Translations under genes and position numbers: made by a program
In this document: positions 20,982-39,179 of the stretch, in pieces
Position numbering within the stretch: position 1 is the stretch's first letter
Layout of the letters: each line of letters starts with the position of its first letter
Assembly: GCA_016214035.1 (NCBI GenBank)
Contig: JACRPF010000015.1
Coordinates: forward strand, 62,001-126,000
Direction: 5' to 3'
DNA from: Spirochaetota bacterium
GTDB taxonomy: Bacteria; Spirochaetota; Brachyspiria; Brachyspirales; JACRPF01
Length of the DNA: 64,000 bases
The notes under the pieces: generated by a model
Databases searched by the model: none
Told to the model about the DNA's origin: nothing
Seen by the model: only the letters and a program-made list of their open reading frames with translations

Positions 20982-22337
20982 CTATTTCAGAAAATAACAG
21001 ACAAGCATATTACCGTGCCTGAGATATATCCTGTCCCCGGCGATGACCGGTTTCGTCCATACGCGTTTTTTCCCCTCGGGTATGGCGCCTTTCATTTTGG
21101 TAACGATTACCGGCCCGCTGGAATCGGCTTTTACAAGGTATAGTGTGCCGGAAAGATCGAGACAGATAAGATGTCCGTCAGCGGCAATTGTGGTACCGAT
21201 ACCGAGCGCATTGGTTTTCCACATCTTTGCCCCGTTGGAAAGATCAACGCACACGAATGAGCCCATGGAATTGGCAAGCGGCATGCCGCTGTAGCCGTAC
21301 GCATATCCGTTGATGAGGATGGGGTCCGTCATGTACGCCTGCAGACTGTTGGTCGCCCACATTTTTTCCGGTCTGCCGTTGGTAATGCGTATGCAGATGC
21401 TGCCGCCGCCTTTGAGCGTGCTCACCAACACGGTGCTGCCGAGTATCGCCGGTGTTACCGCCGTCATGTCGCTCGCGTATCTGCCGGTGGGAATATTCCA
21501 CATTGTTTTGCCGGTTGCCGCGTCGATGAAACTCACCGCGGGCTTATGATAGAGGACGATGTAATCCTTTGCGCCGATCGTCATCACCGCCGGTGTTGAA
21601 TAGCATCCCATACCGGGTGCGGATTTCCAGCGGAGCGTTCCGTTCACTTTATCAAGCGCAACGGCCACCGATTTCCCGCCCGCATGCACGATGACCGTAT
21701 CCTTGTATATGAGCGGTGAGCCGGAAGAGCCCCATTCCGGCGGCGTGCATCCGGCATTGGTTATGTTGTATTCCCAGCGCAGTGCGCCGTCGAAAAGCGC
21801 GTTGCACCGCACATCGCCCTCGCGCGATATCGTATACACCGCGTCGCCGTCTATCGCGGGCGTGGCGCGCTGACCCTGTCCGTAATTGTCCTTCGCATTG
21901 AGCGGATATTTTTGCAGCCATAAAAGGGCGCCGGTAAGCGGATCGAGACAAAAAAGATAATCGTTCGTTGCGTCTCTTCCGGGGACAACGAGCCGGTTCC
22001 CTCGTATCGCGGGACACGCCCATGACATTGCCTTGGGGCCGGTGCAGAGATACCCTATCTCCCACGCTTTCTTCAGCCCGCGCGACCAGTCCTTCTTTAT
22101 ACCCGTAACCGGACTTGTATTGTTGCCGAGCGGTCCAAGCCATGACGTCCAATCCGCCGTCCCTGCGGCAGTTGCCGTAACCGGCGGTATGGTCTTCGCC
22201 AGCGCGGGTATCCTGTCCGAACGCCAGGCTATATCGCCAGAAAAACTTACGGACCACTGCATAAACCAGTATCCCGCGGCGAGAAGCACCGCAAGAACTC
22301 CGGCGATGATAATAATGACGCGTACCGCTTTATTCAT
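20982..22337 (-). CDS. PQQ-like beta-propeller protein, membrane-anchored
   Basis: A 451-residue protein with an N-terminal anchor (residues about 6-28, VIIIIAGVLAVLLAAGYWFM) followed by a periplasmic beta-propeller of PQQ repeats. Repeat-like strands are seen as NYLFCLDPLTGALLWLQKYP, VYTISREGDVRCNALFDGAL RWEY-type, TVIVHAGGKSVAVALDKVNG and VSFIDAATGKTMW. It resembles BamB/quinoprotein-dehydrogenase-like propellers without the extra residues of a true dehydrogenase catalytic site, so a protein-binding or structural role is as likely as enzymatic. Single gene; divergent from the 22596 gene. Confidence 0.85.
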   Translation of the reverse strand: MNKAVRVIIIIAGVLAVLLAAGYWFMQWSVSFSGDIAWRSDRIPALAKTIPPVTATAAGTADWTSWLGPLGNNTSPVTGIKKDWSRGLKKAWEIGYLCTGPKAMSWACPAIRGNRLVVPGRDATNDYLFCLDPLTGALLWLQKYPLNAKDNYGQGQRATPAIDGDAVYTISREGDVRCNALFDGALRWEYNITNAGCTPPEWGSSGSPLIYKDTVIVHAGGKSVAVALDKVNGTLRWKSAPGMGCYSTPAVMTIGAKDYIVLYHKPAVSFIDAATGKTMWNIPTGRYASDMTAVTPAILGSTVLVSTLKGGGSICIRITNGRPEKMWATNSLQAYMTDPILINGYAYGYSGMPLANSMGSFVCVDLSNGAKMWKTNALGIGTTIAADGHLICLDLSGTLYLVKADSSGPVIVTKMKGAIPEGKKRVWTKPVIAGDRIYLRHGNMLVCYFLK

Positions 22338-22405: not shown

Positions 22406-22475
22406 GGGGAACACCGGACAAGGGAGCATCCCTCGGCTACGCTCGGGAACCGTGCTCCCTTGTCCGGTGTTCCCG
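22406..22475. repeat. long perfect inverted repeat, copy 1 of a dispersed hairpin element
   Basis: GGGAACACCGGACAAGGGAG plus CA (22407-22428) is exactly complementary to 22453-22474, giving a 22-bp stem with a 24-nt loop. The loop holds ATCCCTCGGCTACGCTCGGG and AACCG. There is no T-run, and the element sits between two divergent genes, so it is not a simple terminator. A diverged copy lies at 36999-37056 on the other strand. Confidence 0.85.
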
Positions 22476-22595: not shown

Positions 22596-22982
22596 ATGAA
22601 ATCACTCAACGGAACTTCGAAGCGGGAATTCGCGATACGGATTCTCAACGTTCTCACGACCAACGCCGAAGCGGCAAAGCCCGCAGGCGTGGACACATCG
22701 GTGAAGGCCGCCAGACTGAAGGCGCTCATCGACGCGGTATTCGCGGCCAAGGATGCGCAGCTTGCCATCCAGGCACAGTCGCTCGCGGCGACGAAACGCG
22801 CGCGTGAGGCGCTTGAGGATGCGTATGCGGAAGCATCCGCCGCCGTCGATCTGTTCGCCGGATGTCTCGGCAAAAAGGATGCACTGGTGCATCGCCTCAA
22901 GAGAATCCGTGACGAAGTGTCGCGGGGATCTCCGGAAGATGCGGCTGCCGCACCGGATACCAACGAACAGAAGACCGCATAA
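22596..22982 (+). CDS. small helical protein of unknown function, strong ribosome site
   Basis: A 128-residue protein predicted to be almost all helical and rich in Ala and Lys (AVFAAKDAQLAIQAQSLAAT and following). It has one Cys and no membrane segment. I do not recognise a family; phasin-like or nucleoid-associated proteins have a similar composition, but that is only a resemblance. The start is certain: TAAGGAGGTGAT, the full complement of the 16S rRNA 3' end, stands just before the ATG, pointing to high expression. It ends in a strong terminator and seems monocistronic. Two direct repeats AGCTCATGAAC (22524, 22558) lie upstream. Confidence 0.75.
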   Translation: MKSLNGTSKREFAIRILNVLTTNAEAAKPAGVDTSVKAARLKALIDAVFAAKDAQLAIQAQSLAATKRAREALEDAYAEASAAVDLFAGCLGKKDALVHRLKRIRDEVSRGSPEDAAAAPDTNEQKTA

Positions 22983-31058: not shown

Positions 31059-31244
31059 ACAGCTTCGTTACAGTCTATAGAAACATCGTACCGCTTTTCC
31101 TAACGTGCTGACGCTCTCGCCGAACATCCCGTTCGGCTGGCGCTCGCTGCCGCGGGCAAAGCCTTCTGAAAGTTGGCGTCGCGCATCCGTGCGCGTTATG
31201 AACGCCGGTTCCTTTTCTATCTGATGCAGTTCCATGCCCGCGGC

Positions 31245-34216: not shown

Positions 34217-36949
34217 TTAATACTTCTTGAACTCGCCGTCCTCAGTGTCGCTCGGATTGGTCATCTCGTACTCAAATCCCTTGGGCTTCGCCTTCGCCGC
34301 TGCACCCACCGCTTCCTTTATCTCGATGTGTTTGGCCTTCACATCATGACCGTTCCCCGGAACTGCTGCATGTACCGGAGCTAAATGCGCCGGCGTATGC
34401 GTCGGACGTGCAGCCGCTTTCTGGTGCGTCCATGTCTGCGTCTGTTTAGTCTTCTTCTCGTCACCGATCTTGAAGAACGATATGGTATCCTGAAGCTGTA
34501 TCGCCTGGCTGGAGAGTTCTTCCGCCGTGGATGCCACTTCTTCGGCGCCCGACGCGTTCTGCTGCACCACGCCGTTCAGCTGCTGCACCGCATTGTTGAT
34601 CTGCTGCGCGCCGTTGTTCTGCTCGTTGCTCGCCGCGTTGATCTCCGCAACCAGTTCCGCCGTCTTCTGGATATCCGGCACGAGTTTCTCGAGCAACGTT
34701 CCCGCCTTCTCGGCAACCTCAACGCTCGATTTCGAAAGATCGCTTATCTCGCCCGCGGCAAGCTGACTGCGCTCGGCGAGTTTCTGCACTTCGCTTGCCA
34801 CAACCGCAAATCCTTTGCCGTGCTCGCCCGCGCGCGCCGCTTCAATGGATGCATTCAATGACAGCAGATTCGTCTGCCGCGCTATTTCCTGGATGATGGA
34901 AACCTTGCCGGCGATTTCTTTCATCGCTTTCACCGTCTGTTTCATCGCCTCGCCGCTGTCCTTGGCGTCCGTGGCGCTCTTTGTCGCGATTTTTTCCGTC
35001 TGGCTTGCATTGTCCGCGTTCTGTCGTATCGTGGCCGTCATCTCTTCAATGGACGATGACACTTCCTCTACGCTTGCCGCCTGTTCACTTGCACCTTGCG
35101 AGAGTTCTTCGCTCGATGAACTCATCTGCTCGCTGCCGGAACTCACATTGCTGGTCGCAGTTTTCACCGTGCTGACCACCTCGGTGAGTTTTTTGAGCAT
35201 ATTATCAAGCGCCTTAGCCAGGTTTCCAATCTCATCACTGCGTTTGACAATCTTATCCTCTATGTTCGTCTCAAGATTACCGCCGGCGAGTTCGTTCGCG
35301 AATTTCACTCCGACATTCAGCGGATTGGTTATCGACAGACTGAGCACGACACCGATGATGATTGCCATGATCACACCGAGAACGAGCACCGTTATCATGA
35401 TTGTCGATGCCATGTTCGCGAGACTTGTATTTTCATCCGACGTTTCTTTTGAAAGCGCTATCTTAGAGGAAACCAGCGCCTCAATTTCCTTCTGTTCTTC
35501 GAATGCCGCCTGTTTCATCTCGCCCCTGACAACATCCATTGCTTCTTTGTCTTTATCGGCTTTCGCAAGCGATATTACCTGATCAAGATATTTGCCATAT
35601 TCTTCTCTGGCCTTTTTGAACTTTGCAAAGTCATTCCGTCCTGTCTCGGTAAGAATTGTCTTTTCGAACAGTTCGGAGTTTTTCGCTGTCTCCTCACGCA
35701 ATGTCTTTATCGTATCAATTGCCTTCTGCATATCTGCGTCATTATCAGCCTCTATCATATCGCGAACGTTGATACGCACCCGCTGAAATGCTTCCGTTAT
35801 GGACAGCAATTGCGACAGCGGAACCGTCATCTTCTCATACAATTTCGTGTCTGCTGTTGCTATGGCACCCATCTGCACCATTCCAAAAATACCGATGATA
35901 GCCGCAATGGCAGCCACCGCAACGAATCCAGTAATCAGTTTTGCTCCGATTCCCAATTTCATAAAGCTTCCTCCAGTCTCACGTTTTTTTTGTACACTAT
36001 AAAAAATAGCCGCCGCGGCTATGAGTAGAATGATGATACCTCCGACTATCAGGGGAAAAAGCGGTCCCGCCCCCTCTCCCGATTTCCTTTCATCCTTATG
36101 AGACACTACAGACTGCTCGGCCCGGGATGAGACATGCGTTGCAGTTACCGGAAGAGCCGATGCCGATGCAGCATGCTCCTCCGGATTTGATTCCGTTACT
36201 GCGGCAAGCAACCCCCTCTCACCGGGATGCCTGCCGAGCCATTTTACGCGTCCGGTTCCGATATCATATTCAGCGCCGATAACGGTAAGTTTTCCCTCAT
36301 TTACCAGTTCCCTGATTTCAGCGCTGCGCTTGAATACGTCTTCAACGGACTGCCATACGTTCAGTTCAATTGCTTTTGCGATGAGCGCGGGTGTTACGGT
36401 CCCGCCCAGCTCTTTTTTCGCCTTCGCCGCGGCGGGAACGATGTTGTCCACAAGCGACGGTATGCTGCCGTGCACCGTGTCGCCCTTCACCACCGCCGTC
36501 ACCGCGCCGCATTTGCTGTGGCCGAGCACCACGAGCAGCGGCGTACCCAGATGTCCCGCGCCGTATTCGATCGTCCCCACCTCGTCCGTATCGGCAACAT
36601 TGCCGGCAACGCGGACGACAAAGAGATCGCCAACGCCCGCGTCGAACAGATGTTCGAGCGGTACACGCGAGTCCGAACAGCCGAGTATGGTGACGAACGG
36701 TTTCTGGCCGTTCTGCGCGGTGTCGGCAAGCCGCGCCCTGTCCTGATTCGGCTGTAAACGTTTACCCGAAACAAAACGCTCGTTGCCGTTCACAAGCTTT
36801 GTCTTCGCCTCGTCGGCAGACACGCCCGCACCGCCGCCTGACGCGAACACTGCGGCGGAGAAGAATAGTGCGAGCATAGCCCCGAACATCACCGCCGCGC
36901 GTTTCGGAAGGTGAACGGGAGTAATCCGGTGTTGTTTGCTGCTTTTCAT
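34217..36949 (-). CDS. periplasmic beta-carbonic anhydrase fused in frame to an MCP
   Basis: As read, a 910-residue protein. Residues 1-37 are a signal peptide (ends AAVFASGGG). Residues about 45-245 are a beta-carbonic anhydrase with zinc ligands Cys91, His144 and Cys147 and the Asp93-Arg95 dyad ([19 protein letters not shown]). Residues 296-318 are a membrane helix ([20 protein letters not shown]). Residue Met330 is the exact start of a complete 581-residue MCP, the same length as copy 1, with its own Shine-Dalgarno. The order signal peptide, periplasmic enzyme, helix, short cytoplasmic loop, MCP helix pair is topologically sound for one chain. Start at 36949 after AGGAG. See the junction feature: one base less in an 8-A run gives two separate genes. 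Likely role: CO2/bicarbonate-linked chemotaxis (inference). Confidence 0.9.
35959..35991 (-). promoter_or_regulatory. fusion junction: A8 tract, Shine-Dalgarno and internal ATG
   Basis: On the minus strand the junction reads GTAC, eight A (35991-35984), CGTGAGACTGGAGGAAGCTT and T, then ATG (35962-35960). GGAGGAAG (35974-35967) is a strong ribosome site for the internal ATG. With seven A the upstream frame would end at a TGA overlapping this ATG as ATGA; with nine A it would stop two codons after the tract. Only eight A gives the fusion. Homopolymers of this length are prone to replication, transcription or sequencing slips. Confidence 0.85.
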
Positions 36950-36998
36950 TTTTTCTCCTATGGCTGTTTTCTGAAAATATAAAATGATGCTCCGTTTT

Positions 36999-37056
36999 AT
37001 TGCGCAAGGGGCTCGGTTCCCGAGCATTGTCGAGGGATAAGCCACTTGTTCCCAGG
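36999..37056. repeat. dispersed hairpin element, copy 2
   Basis: Read on the minus strand, this stretch contains GGGAACAAGTGGCTTATCCC, then TCGACAATGCTCGGGAACCG and AGCCCCTTG. It aligns with 22416-22464: the loop ATCCCTCG-C-A-GCTCGGGAACCG is conserved while the stem has changed on both sides (AAGTGGCT with AGCCCCTT here, AAGGGAGC with GCTCCCTT in copy 1), so base pairing is kept. It lies between cheA and the carbonic anhydrase gene. Confidence 0.65.
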
Positions 37057-37070
37057 ATGTAAGTGTCTCC

Positions 37071-39179
37071 TCATGCTTCCGCCATCCTTTCCGCATGCGC
37101 GGTTTCTACAAGTGCTATTTCATTCTTGATTATCGTGTTCGCGTCGAGTATAAGCGCCACAGTACCGTCGCCGAGTATTGTCGCACCCGCGACCTCTTCG
37201 ATGCCGCGAAACGTGCTGCCGAGCGATTTGATGACCGTCTGATGCTGCCCGAGCACATCGTCCACCACAAGCCCCACGCGCCGTTCGCCCATCTTTGTCA
37301 CCACCATACGTTCGATGAGCGGCACATTCCCGTTGATATTGAAATTCTTTCTGAGCCGTACATAGGGTATTATCTCGCCGCGTATGTTCACCACATTGCT
37401 GCCGTGTCCGGTGTTGACGATATCCTCGGTGAGATCCACGCATTCGTCCACGTTCGAAAGATTGAGCACGAAGTAATCATTGCCGATGCGGGCGAGCAGG
37501 CCCTCCACGATGGCAAGCGTAAGCGGGATCTTCAGCGTGAACGTGGTCCCCTGTCCCGCCGCCGACTGTATCTCAACGGTGCCGCGGAGTTTCTCAACGT
37601 TCTTTTTCACCACGTCCATTCCCACGCCGCGGCCCGACACGCTGGTGGCCTTATCAACGGTTGAGAAGCCGGGCAGGAATATCATCTGTTCTATTTCATG
37701 CGCCGGGAGCTCGGCATTCTCTTTCACGAGCCCGCGCTCAATCGCTTTTTTCAGTATGCGCGAACGGTTAAGCCCGCCGCCGTCATCGGAGACGGTGATG
37801 AGCACATGTGCTCCCGCATGAGCGGCGGAAAGCGTTATCGTACCCTTCGCGTCCTTGCCGTTCGCCCGGCGTTCTTCGGGCTGTTCGATGCCGTGGTCGG
37901 CGGCGTTGCGTATGATATGCAGGAGCGGGTCTTTCAGCGCCTCGATGATATTTTTGTCCAGTTCCGTTTCGGCGCCGTTCGTCACCAGTTCGATGTCCTT
38001 GCCGAGGTCTTTTGACAGGTCACGCACCAGGCGTGAGAAACCCTTGAACATCTCGTCAACGGGAATCATGCGGAGCGCCATCGACGTGTCACGAAGCTCG
38101 TCGGTGAGGCGCGCGAGCATTTCGGTGAGCATGCGTCCGTCGCCGAGACGTTTCGCCCCCGAAAGCTGATTGAACCGCGCGGTGAGTGTGACGAGTTCGC
38201 CAACCAGATTCACAAGCTTGTCGAGTTTTTCGCTCTTAACGCGTATGCTCGATTTGGAGACATCATCACGCCGTTTCATGCGCTCGCTGCGCACAACATT
38301 CTGTTCGGCGAGCGCCGCGGCCACCTGCGCTTCGGTGACATAGCCTTTCTCCACCGCTATCTCGCCAATCATCTTGCGCGAACTGAGTATATCGGATAGA
38401 TCCTCTTCGCTTATGTCGCCGCGTTCCACCAGAATATCGCCGATGCGCTTATATTCCTCGGTCGCCGATGTCGTACTGCCGGTATCGATGACCTCGATTG
38501 ATATTTCGCTCGTATCCTCAACGAATATGAAGATGTCGCGCAGGGCGTTCGCATCCTTCTCCGTGCTCAGGATGATGGTCCATGCGGTATAACATTTCTC
38601 GGCGTCCATATTATCGAGCGTTTTAGAACTCGGTGTGGCAACGATGACGCAATCCCCCGCGCGTTTGAGCTCGTTGAATAAGGGCTCGAGTCTCGCGCCG
38701 TGCATGAAAATGTCTTCTTTCGGTTTGAACTGTATGCGGTAGGTGTTCCGTTCGACGGCGGACGGAGCTTTTGCATCCTCTTTTTTCACCGCCGGTGCGG
38801 CGGCAGTAATGCCCGTCGTCGTGCGCATGGTGTGTATCAGCGCGGCGGTATCCCCGATGGGGACCGATTGTTCATCACCGAGCACTGCTTTAAGATGATC
38901 CGCCGCGGCAAGCGTAAGATCGATAATTTCCTTGGTGACGGCGAGACTTCCCTTGCGTATCAGATCGAACAGCGTCTCGAATTCATGCGCGAATTTCGAT
39001 GCGCGGTCGAAACCGAACATGGCGCCCGAGCCTTTGATGGTGTGCATGCCGCGGAATATGGTGTTGATGGTCTCCGCGTCGGACGGGTCTTTCTCAAGCT
39101 CGATCAGCGACTGTTCAATGCGTTCGATTATCTCGAACGCCTCGTCGCGAAAAGCGTCGCTGAACTTGCTGACATCCAT
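37071..39179 (-). CDS. cheA: chemotaxis histidine kinase CheA with an added MshEN-like motif pair
   Basis: A 702-residue CheA. P1/Hpt at 1-105 with His46 in [12 protein letters not shown]; a P2-like domain about 145-230; then residues 245-293 hold two copies of a GspE-N/MshEN-like motif, [20 protein letters not shown] and [20 protein letters not shown], which is not part of ordinary CheA; P3 dimerisation from [18 protein letters not shown]4 ATPase with [20 protein letters not shown] and [11 protein letters not shown]5 CheW-like domain from [20 protein letters not shown] to the end. It phosphorylates CheY and CheB. It follows the STAS gene by 48 bp in the large che operon. Confidence 0.97.

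Follow-up and report, generated by a model that had tools for sequence, protein, structure and literature searches.

A 24-nt REP-like unit at the centre of dispersed palindromes in a Spirochaetota genome, with empty, filled and self-nested sites

REPs of the GTAG and CGTC superfamilies have been described as dispersed hairpins of 20–40 bp with a terminal tetranucleotide, occurring as singles, dimers and clusters and in some cases within genes (PMC3733652; Di Nocera et al., 2013). The CGTC superfamily ends in CGTC (or TGTC/CCTC) and has stems of 8–9 bp; the elements GTAG-15, GTAG-23 and CGTC-1 were reported inside palindromes, and by the same account, in two of these three cases no REP-free form of the palindrome was found (PMC3733652). 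REPtrons combine REPs with a TnpA-REP/RAYT gene (Quentin, 2018, PMC6006769; PMC8266576), and cleavage and joining of ssDNA hairpins have been shown for TnpA-REP (PMC8266576). Other related systems are the TIRYTs, which are RAYT genes flanked by TIRs (PMC3733652), the Rickettsia palindromic elements (RPEs) of about 150 bp that are inserted in frame in protein genes (PMC10969869), and IS1397, IS621 and ISRm22, complete insertion sequences that carry a transposase gene and insert into REPs, ISRm22 at the axis of palindromy (PMC1525189). From these sources it is already known that REPs can lie inside palindromes and in frame within genes, and that insertion sequences can enter at the axis of a REP. 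What is surprising about the present element is an exact 24-nt quantum together with self-nesting, and string and topic searches of the open-access literature returned no report of a YGGT foot with a GAGC-N3-GYCGA loop, of a 24-nt empty/filled series, or of self-nesting.

The window is a stretch of 64,000 nucleotides (G000:C12:62001-126000) of a 5.2-Mb genome assembled in 22 contigs. A hairpin at 22406-22475 had been predicted from this sequence, its loop recurring inverted at 36999-37056, and the recurrence was confirmed, with a common unit on the minus strand in copy 1 and on the plus strand in copy 2. Each copy consists of two nested repeat elements, a palindrome outside and a separate 24-nt unit at its exact centre. 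The arms of copy 1 (22407-22428 and 22453-22474, annotated without strand) are 22 nt long and 100% complementary around a 24-nt spacer, and the left arm is composed of a unique outer part (22407-22415, GGGAACACC) and a shared inner part (22416-22428, GGACAAGGGAGCA) that recurs empty elsewhere. The spacer is the unit itself (22429-22452), which on the minus strand reads foot CGGT (22449-22452), stem TCCC (22445-22448), loop GAGCGTAGCCGA (22433-22444) and stem GGGA (22429-22432). In copy 2, the unit CGGT TCCC GAGCATTGTCGA GGGA occupies 37014-37037 on the plus strand between the strandless arms CAAGGGGCT (37005-37013) and AGCCACTTG (37040-37048). The claim that the stems are complementary in each copy holds for copy 1 and only in part for copy 2, whose arms contain one mismatch and two extra bases (TA, 37038-37039) that are unpaired. 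Palindrome 2 without the unit is present elsewhere in the same genome as ACAAGGGGCTTAAGCCCCTTGT (G000:C1:457524). The cores of the two copies share a 31-nt match with 84% complementarity, and a consensus scan of the window returned these two copies only, a count reached in 0 of 100 shuffles. The stretch at 31110-31160, proposed as a weaker similar member, does form a 7-bp hairpin (GCCGAAC/GTTCGGC; folding z = -1.4) but lacks the loop motif, and it does not belong to the family.

Copy 1 (22407-22474) is located between divergent genes, a PQQ_2/BamB-like gene (20982-22337, minus) and a gene for a 128-aa protein with no Pfam match (22596-22982, plus). Copy 2 (37005-37048) is located between co-directed genes on the minus strand: a CheA-like kinase gene (37071-39179) ends on one side of it, and a carbonic anhydrase/MCP fusion gene (listed ORF 34217-37096, start ATG at 36949) begins on the other. 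When folded as DNA, copy 1 is strongly structured (z = -9.6 and -9.0 for the two strands), as would be anticipated if the element were a functional RNA or regulatory hairpin (a terminator or mRNA stabiliser) under selection and not mobile, and a T run after copy L001 points in the same direction. That reading is very unlikely in our opinion, as copies occur within coding sequences and between divergent as well as co-directed genes, the unit is missing from the corresponding site of paralogues, and a search of the window with the Rfam 15 models found two tRNAs only and no match to the unit. A terminator or a known Rfam RNA was rejected on account of the absent Rfam match and the coding and divergent-promoter locations. 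Copy 2 alone folds weakly (z = -1.8 and -1.1), and so does a lone 24-nt unit (-1.6 kcal/mol).

Two further features of the window were observed. Between 31268 and 43733, related regions lie 2,442 bp and 8-11 kb apart, with blocks of 70-99% identity, and overlap the carbonic anhydrase/MCP fusion gene; judging from these alignments, a recent duplication of chemotaxis-type genes appears to have taken place. Between 18798 and 20078, a repeat is phased in 12-bp multiples, with a 49-nt stretch present 21 times, within long ORFs on both strands.

Further copies in the genome, on which the original prediction had staked the resemblance, were found at 14 places with no more than three mismatches, against 0 for the reversed control pattern. 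A looser pattern matched 30 places, of which 16 were taken as units, the first 14 and two more; the other 14 were mostly three-mismatch matches (control, 3). Chance resemblance or an assembly artefact is hardly conceivable; the division of the assembly into 22 contigs could be cited in its favour, but besides the 14 matches against 0, the chosen regions hold 41 perfect hairpins against 2 in their shuffled sequence, and the unit recurs in independently assembled genomes. The consensus of the unit is YGGT-N4-GAGC-N3-GYCGA-N4', that is, a foot, a 4-bp stem and an invariant loop GAGC-N3-GYCGA, 24 nt in total, and the window type reads CGGT-TCCC-GAGCGTAGTCGA-GGGA on the foot-first strand. An inverted repeat surrounds every one of the 22 TCCC/CCCC-type sites (16 from this genome and 6 from the sister genome G001), with the unit at its centre, and the units of the two genomes with other stems are partly free. 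Carriage by viruses found no support, as a narrow exact unit pattern had 0 matches in viral contigs.

The unit shares with the GTAG and CGTC REPs, as they are described in PMC3733652, the character of a dispersed short hairpin present as singles, dimers and clusters, in some cases within genes or palindromes, and in this broad sense it qualifies as a REP of low copy number (16 pattern places in this genome). It differs from those REPs in its YGGT foot, in a loop that is invariant while the stems vary, in its exact 24-nt presence or absence in paralogues, and in nesting in its own loop. The foot was CGGT or TGGT at 19 of the 22 sites (CGAT, TCGT and TGAT at the other three), and GTAG was present only inside some loops, so the unit is not a GTAG-superfamily REP, which has a 5' GTRG foot at the hairpin base. 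With its YGGT foot and 4-bp inner stem, it is not a CGTC-superfamily REP either. The suggestion of a REP-type or mobile hairpin is thus upheld as regards dispersal, the conserved loop and covarying stems, but what was taken for a loop is an element in its own right, 24 nt long and placed on the dyad of a second palindrome.

The dispersed outer palindromes belong for the most part to three types (GGACAAGGG..CCCTTGTCC, GGACAGCGGGG..CCCCGCTGTCC and GCAGGCGCGGTC..GACCGCGCCTGC), and the arms around the unit are of several types (...AAGGGAGCA, ...AAGGGCTCA, ...AGCGGGGCA, ...AAGGGGCT and ...GCGCGGTC), often extending outwards into copy-specific sequence. Among 21 distinct rows, 13 of 18 pairs showed changes on both sides, and 81.5% of cells were paired, compared with 69.4% after shuffling (81.5% reached in 0/500) and 43-53% when slid. 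The covariation of the outer arms in the two window copies, from which selection on a fold had been argued, is not proof of such selection because the copies are different palindrome types and because templated correction is also possible; the argument survives for the inner 4-bp stem. Templated correction within a palindrome can equally yield perfect complementarity of long unique outer arms, and such correction would be the simplest origin of the arms seen here.

The inner stem was examined in 55 distinct units outside the two genomes, which were picked on foot and loop only, although the fetched loci had partly been chosen with the closing pair fixed as Y-R. Four of four pairs were formed in 40 of them, three in 11 and two in 4, with 16 stem sequences among the 40 fully complementary units and four pairs in 0 of 87 shifted controls. 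It is well supported by these alignments that the fold of the inner 4-bp stem matters, as many different complementary stems enclose one loop across phyla. The covariance-model search that had been proposed (model R1) gave 19 matches in this genome and 15 in G001, and matches at E<=0.01 in 17 of 247 sampled genomes of the phylum. The foot and loop pattern GGT-N3-Y-GAGC-N3-GYCGA-R was found in 68 of these 247 genomes (483 places; reversed control, 19 genomes, tallied by eye). It was likewise common in the Ignavibacteria, Bacteroidales and Gordonia genomes covered, which were preselected for having the core. Head-to-tail tandem arrays with a period of 24 were seen in four genomes (G043, G108, G248 and G249). 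In genomes beyond this family most units are free and not palindrome-borne, often as CGGT...ACCG forms that resemble the "double foot" forms of REPtrons (PMC6006769, PMC8266576). Among the exceptions is L141 (G125), in which a perfect 14-bp palindrome surrounds an exact 24-nt unit.

Sites with and without the unit were compared within the genome. Empty palindromes with the same stems as filled ones include ACAAGGGAGCA^TGCTCCCTTGT, at three places, and others. The pattern ACAAGG-N(6-36)-CCTTGT matched 18 places, comprising 5 filled sites, 10 empty sites (among them ACAAGGGAGCATGCTCCCTTGT at three places and the empty form of palindrome 2) and 3 unrelated loops. As the reversed control matched 18 places too, the number by itself carries no weight, and the evidence lies in the 15 full palindromes. 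In a pair of repeat copies with common flanks, C21:134784 is empty and C3:102085 is filled, the difference being the unit, and the aligned pieces, arms included, measure 37 nt (92%) and 75 nt (80%).

The clearest series is found in paralogous ECF sigma-factor genes (Sigma70_r2 and r4), which carry the elements within the coding sequence, in the linker preceding a conserved C-terminal tail. With length differences taken between fixed anchors, site A is empty in L122, longer by 24 nt in L128, L132 and L116, and longer by 72 nt in L124; site B is empty in L122 and carries +24 in L114; and site C is empty in L114, L132 and L124, carries +24 in L128, L133 and L130 (in L130 in the opposite orientation) and +72 in L122. 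The three sites together give 14 instances, 5 empty, 7 with +24 and 2 with +72, and each 24-nt step equals 8 codons and keeps the frame. At these sites no clear palindrome was seen in the sigma copies L118, L120, L131, L126 (stop codon) and, for site C, L116, or in the G001 homologues L115, L119 and L121; all of these are outside the 14, and L117 is cut by a contig end and unreadable there. The gene tree of the paralogues is poorly resolved. Between L128 and L130 the arm TGCGTCATGGAGG has become TGCGTTTTATAGG, and its partner arm has changed to match, inside the coding region. Since 24 nt are 8 codons and stop-free in these frames, such insertions would be tolerated in protein linkers, and the sigma factors represent a clear case of palindrome-borne, frame-keeping insertions reshaping one. 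In this they are comparable to RPEs, the likeness being one of in-frame behaviour, since RPEs are reported at about 150 bp (PMC10969869) and the quantum here is 24 nt. Paralogues of this family were also observed at contig ends (L122 and L124 at the ends of C1, L116 in C22 and L126 in C6); the assembly is probably broken by this repeated family, of which there may be further copies.

In the two +72 cases (L122 and L124), three units are present, each inside the loop of the next. The inner pair, a CGCT-stem unit holding a CACC-stem unit, is identical in both and is carried by a CACT-type unit at L124 and by a TCCC-type unit at L122, which indicates that a loaded unit has itself been transferred. 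Four further loci are nested by one step, with covariance-model matches of 76 nt (three) and 75 nt (one) compared with 52, and the length steps between states are 24 nt. Empty, filled and doubly nested states with defined 24-nt ends thus coexist in paralogous genes of one genome, which makes hairpin-tip insertion directly testable.

A different explanation of these series is that only the outer palindrome moves, its 24-nt loop being passed on or lost when palindromes with common stems recombine or undergo gene conversion. Filled and empty sites do have common stems, the sigma paralogues have long common flanks as well, and some arms are mosaic, as in L132, whose left and right arms belong to different types. 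However, the unit is found in several stem types whose sequences differ as far as the junction itself, within a palindrome from another family of the phylum (L141), nested in the loops of further units, and as a free element in other phyla, none of which conversion could start, so that we regard this explanation as quite unlikely.

We favour, with a confidence that is evenly balanced, the interpretation of the unit as a REP-like non-autonomous mobile element that is targeted to hairpin tips, with a Y1 transposase as the likeliest enzyme. In single-stranded DNA the unit would adopt a foot and an imperfect hairpin, with tandem G.A mismatches below a short loop, would be excised and joined as a 24-nt piece, and would enter a single-stranded hairpin tip, either the centre of a palindrome or its own loop. 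The REP-targeting insertion sequences in PMC1525189 offer a parallel in their insertion into REPs, although they carry a transposase gene. On chemistry, Y1 HuH enzymes (TnpA-REP/RAYT) are the first choice as the class moving the unit, since cleavage and joining of ssDNA hairpins are known for TnpA-REP; we rate the chance of this choice being right at about one half. The unit looks like one of the smallest DNA pieces able to spread in a genome, and the finding bears on how REPs multiply.

The search for a REP-associated transposase gene, as proposed with the original prediction, identified three Y1_Tnp (Y1/RAYT-like) genes in this genome, and all three proteins match the NCBIfam REP-associated transposase model, one of them above the cut-off. 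Y1 genes were present in 43 of the 68 unit-positive genomes and in 54 of the 179 others (odds ratio 4.0, p = 4e-6, from raw counts without correction for kinship or genome size). The association is of a different kind for the two nested elements. Palindromes of the CAAGGGG type adjoin Y1 genes in a few cases (L015; L182 of G188, on both sides; L204 of G064), so the outer palindrome probably belongs to such a Y1 gene as its REP or TIR, whereas the 24-nt unit generally does not adjoin them: among 30 loci of L017-like Y1 genes, the 4-bp-stem unit occurred only near the gene of this genome (seen twice, in overlapping loci). Compared with REPtrons as described by Quentin (2018, PMC6006769) and in PMC8266576, the unit shares a foot, a mismatched hairpin and Y1 genes in the genome, but the repeat flanks the Y1 gene there, as the outer palindrome does here and the unit does at L017 only. 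The CAAGGGGNN palindromes near RAYT genes recall the self-complementary repeats of TIRYTs, though the latter figure in that account as terminal repeats and not as targets for nesting (PMC3733652). An L017-type Y1 protein as the partner of the unit is unsupported by the flanks of the 30 loci or by G001, in which a Y1_Tnp search at E<=0.001 found no gene despite 15 model and 17 pattern matches. Within the L016 locus a hairpin with 19-bp arms was observed inside a Y1/RAYT-like coding sequence (1754-1803), a related hairpin lying upstream (1239-1286). Separately, G000:C16:286828-287766 (L276) matches the integron integrase model TIGR02249 with 375 bits (cut-off 265), and by this match the genome may contain an integron.

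An alternative is that no dedicated enzyme is involved and that host repair spreads the units. SbcCD is a nuclease that cleaves hairpins at their tips, and template switching corrects quasipalindromes; a nuclease of this sort could open extruded palindrome tips, where a short hairpin fragment would be captured, or lagging-strand template switching between hairpins could add a copy of another unit. Unit-rich genomes devoid of Y1 genes exist (9 of the 33 genomes with at least 3 units, G001 among them), the targets are palindrome centres that share little sequence, and the outer arms are perfect and specific to each copy, pointing to templated repair there. On the other hand, a constant foot and loop and a quantum of exactly 24 nt at many sites speak for defined ends, and we consider spread by host repair alone somewhat unlikely. 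Returning to a mobile unit, a bolder form of this interpretation, which we put forward tentatively and think rather unlikely, is a self-nesting hairpin that moves independently of Y1, in exact 24-nt quanta, into hairpin tips including its own loop, in several phyla. If true, it would be among the smallest mobile DNAs, with a new chemistry of hairpin-tip insertion, and would in addition give rise to in-frame peptide insertions in proteins.

Long hairpins of a second family were seen in four of the sampled stretches, one per stretch (L086:7663, L092:12321, L093:6108 and L100:19521). Complementary arms, for example TCGTCAAAA/TTTTGACGA, enclose 81-87 nt of the form CTGTNNGAGCA...GCGAGTT, and the hairpins are possibly attC-like or another nested repeat.
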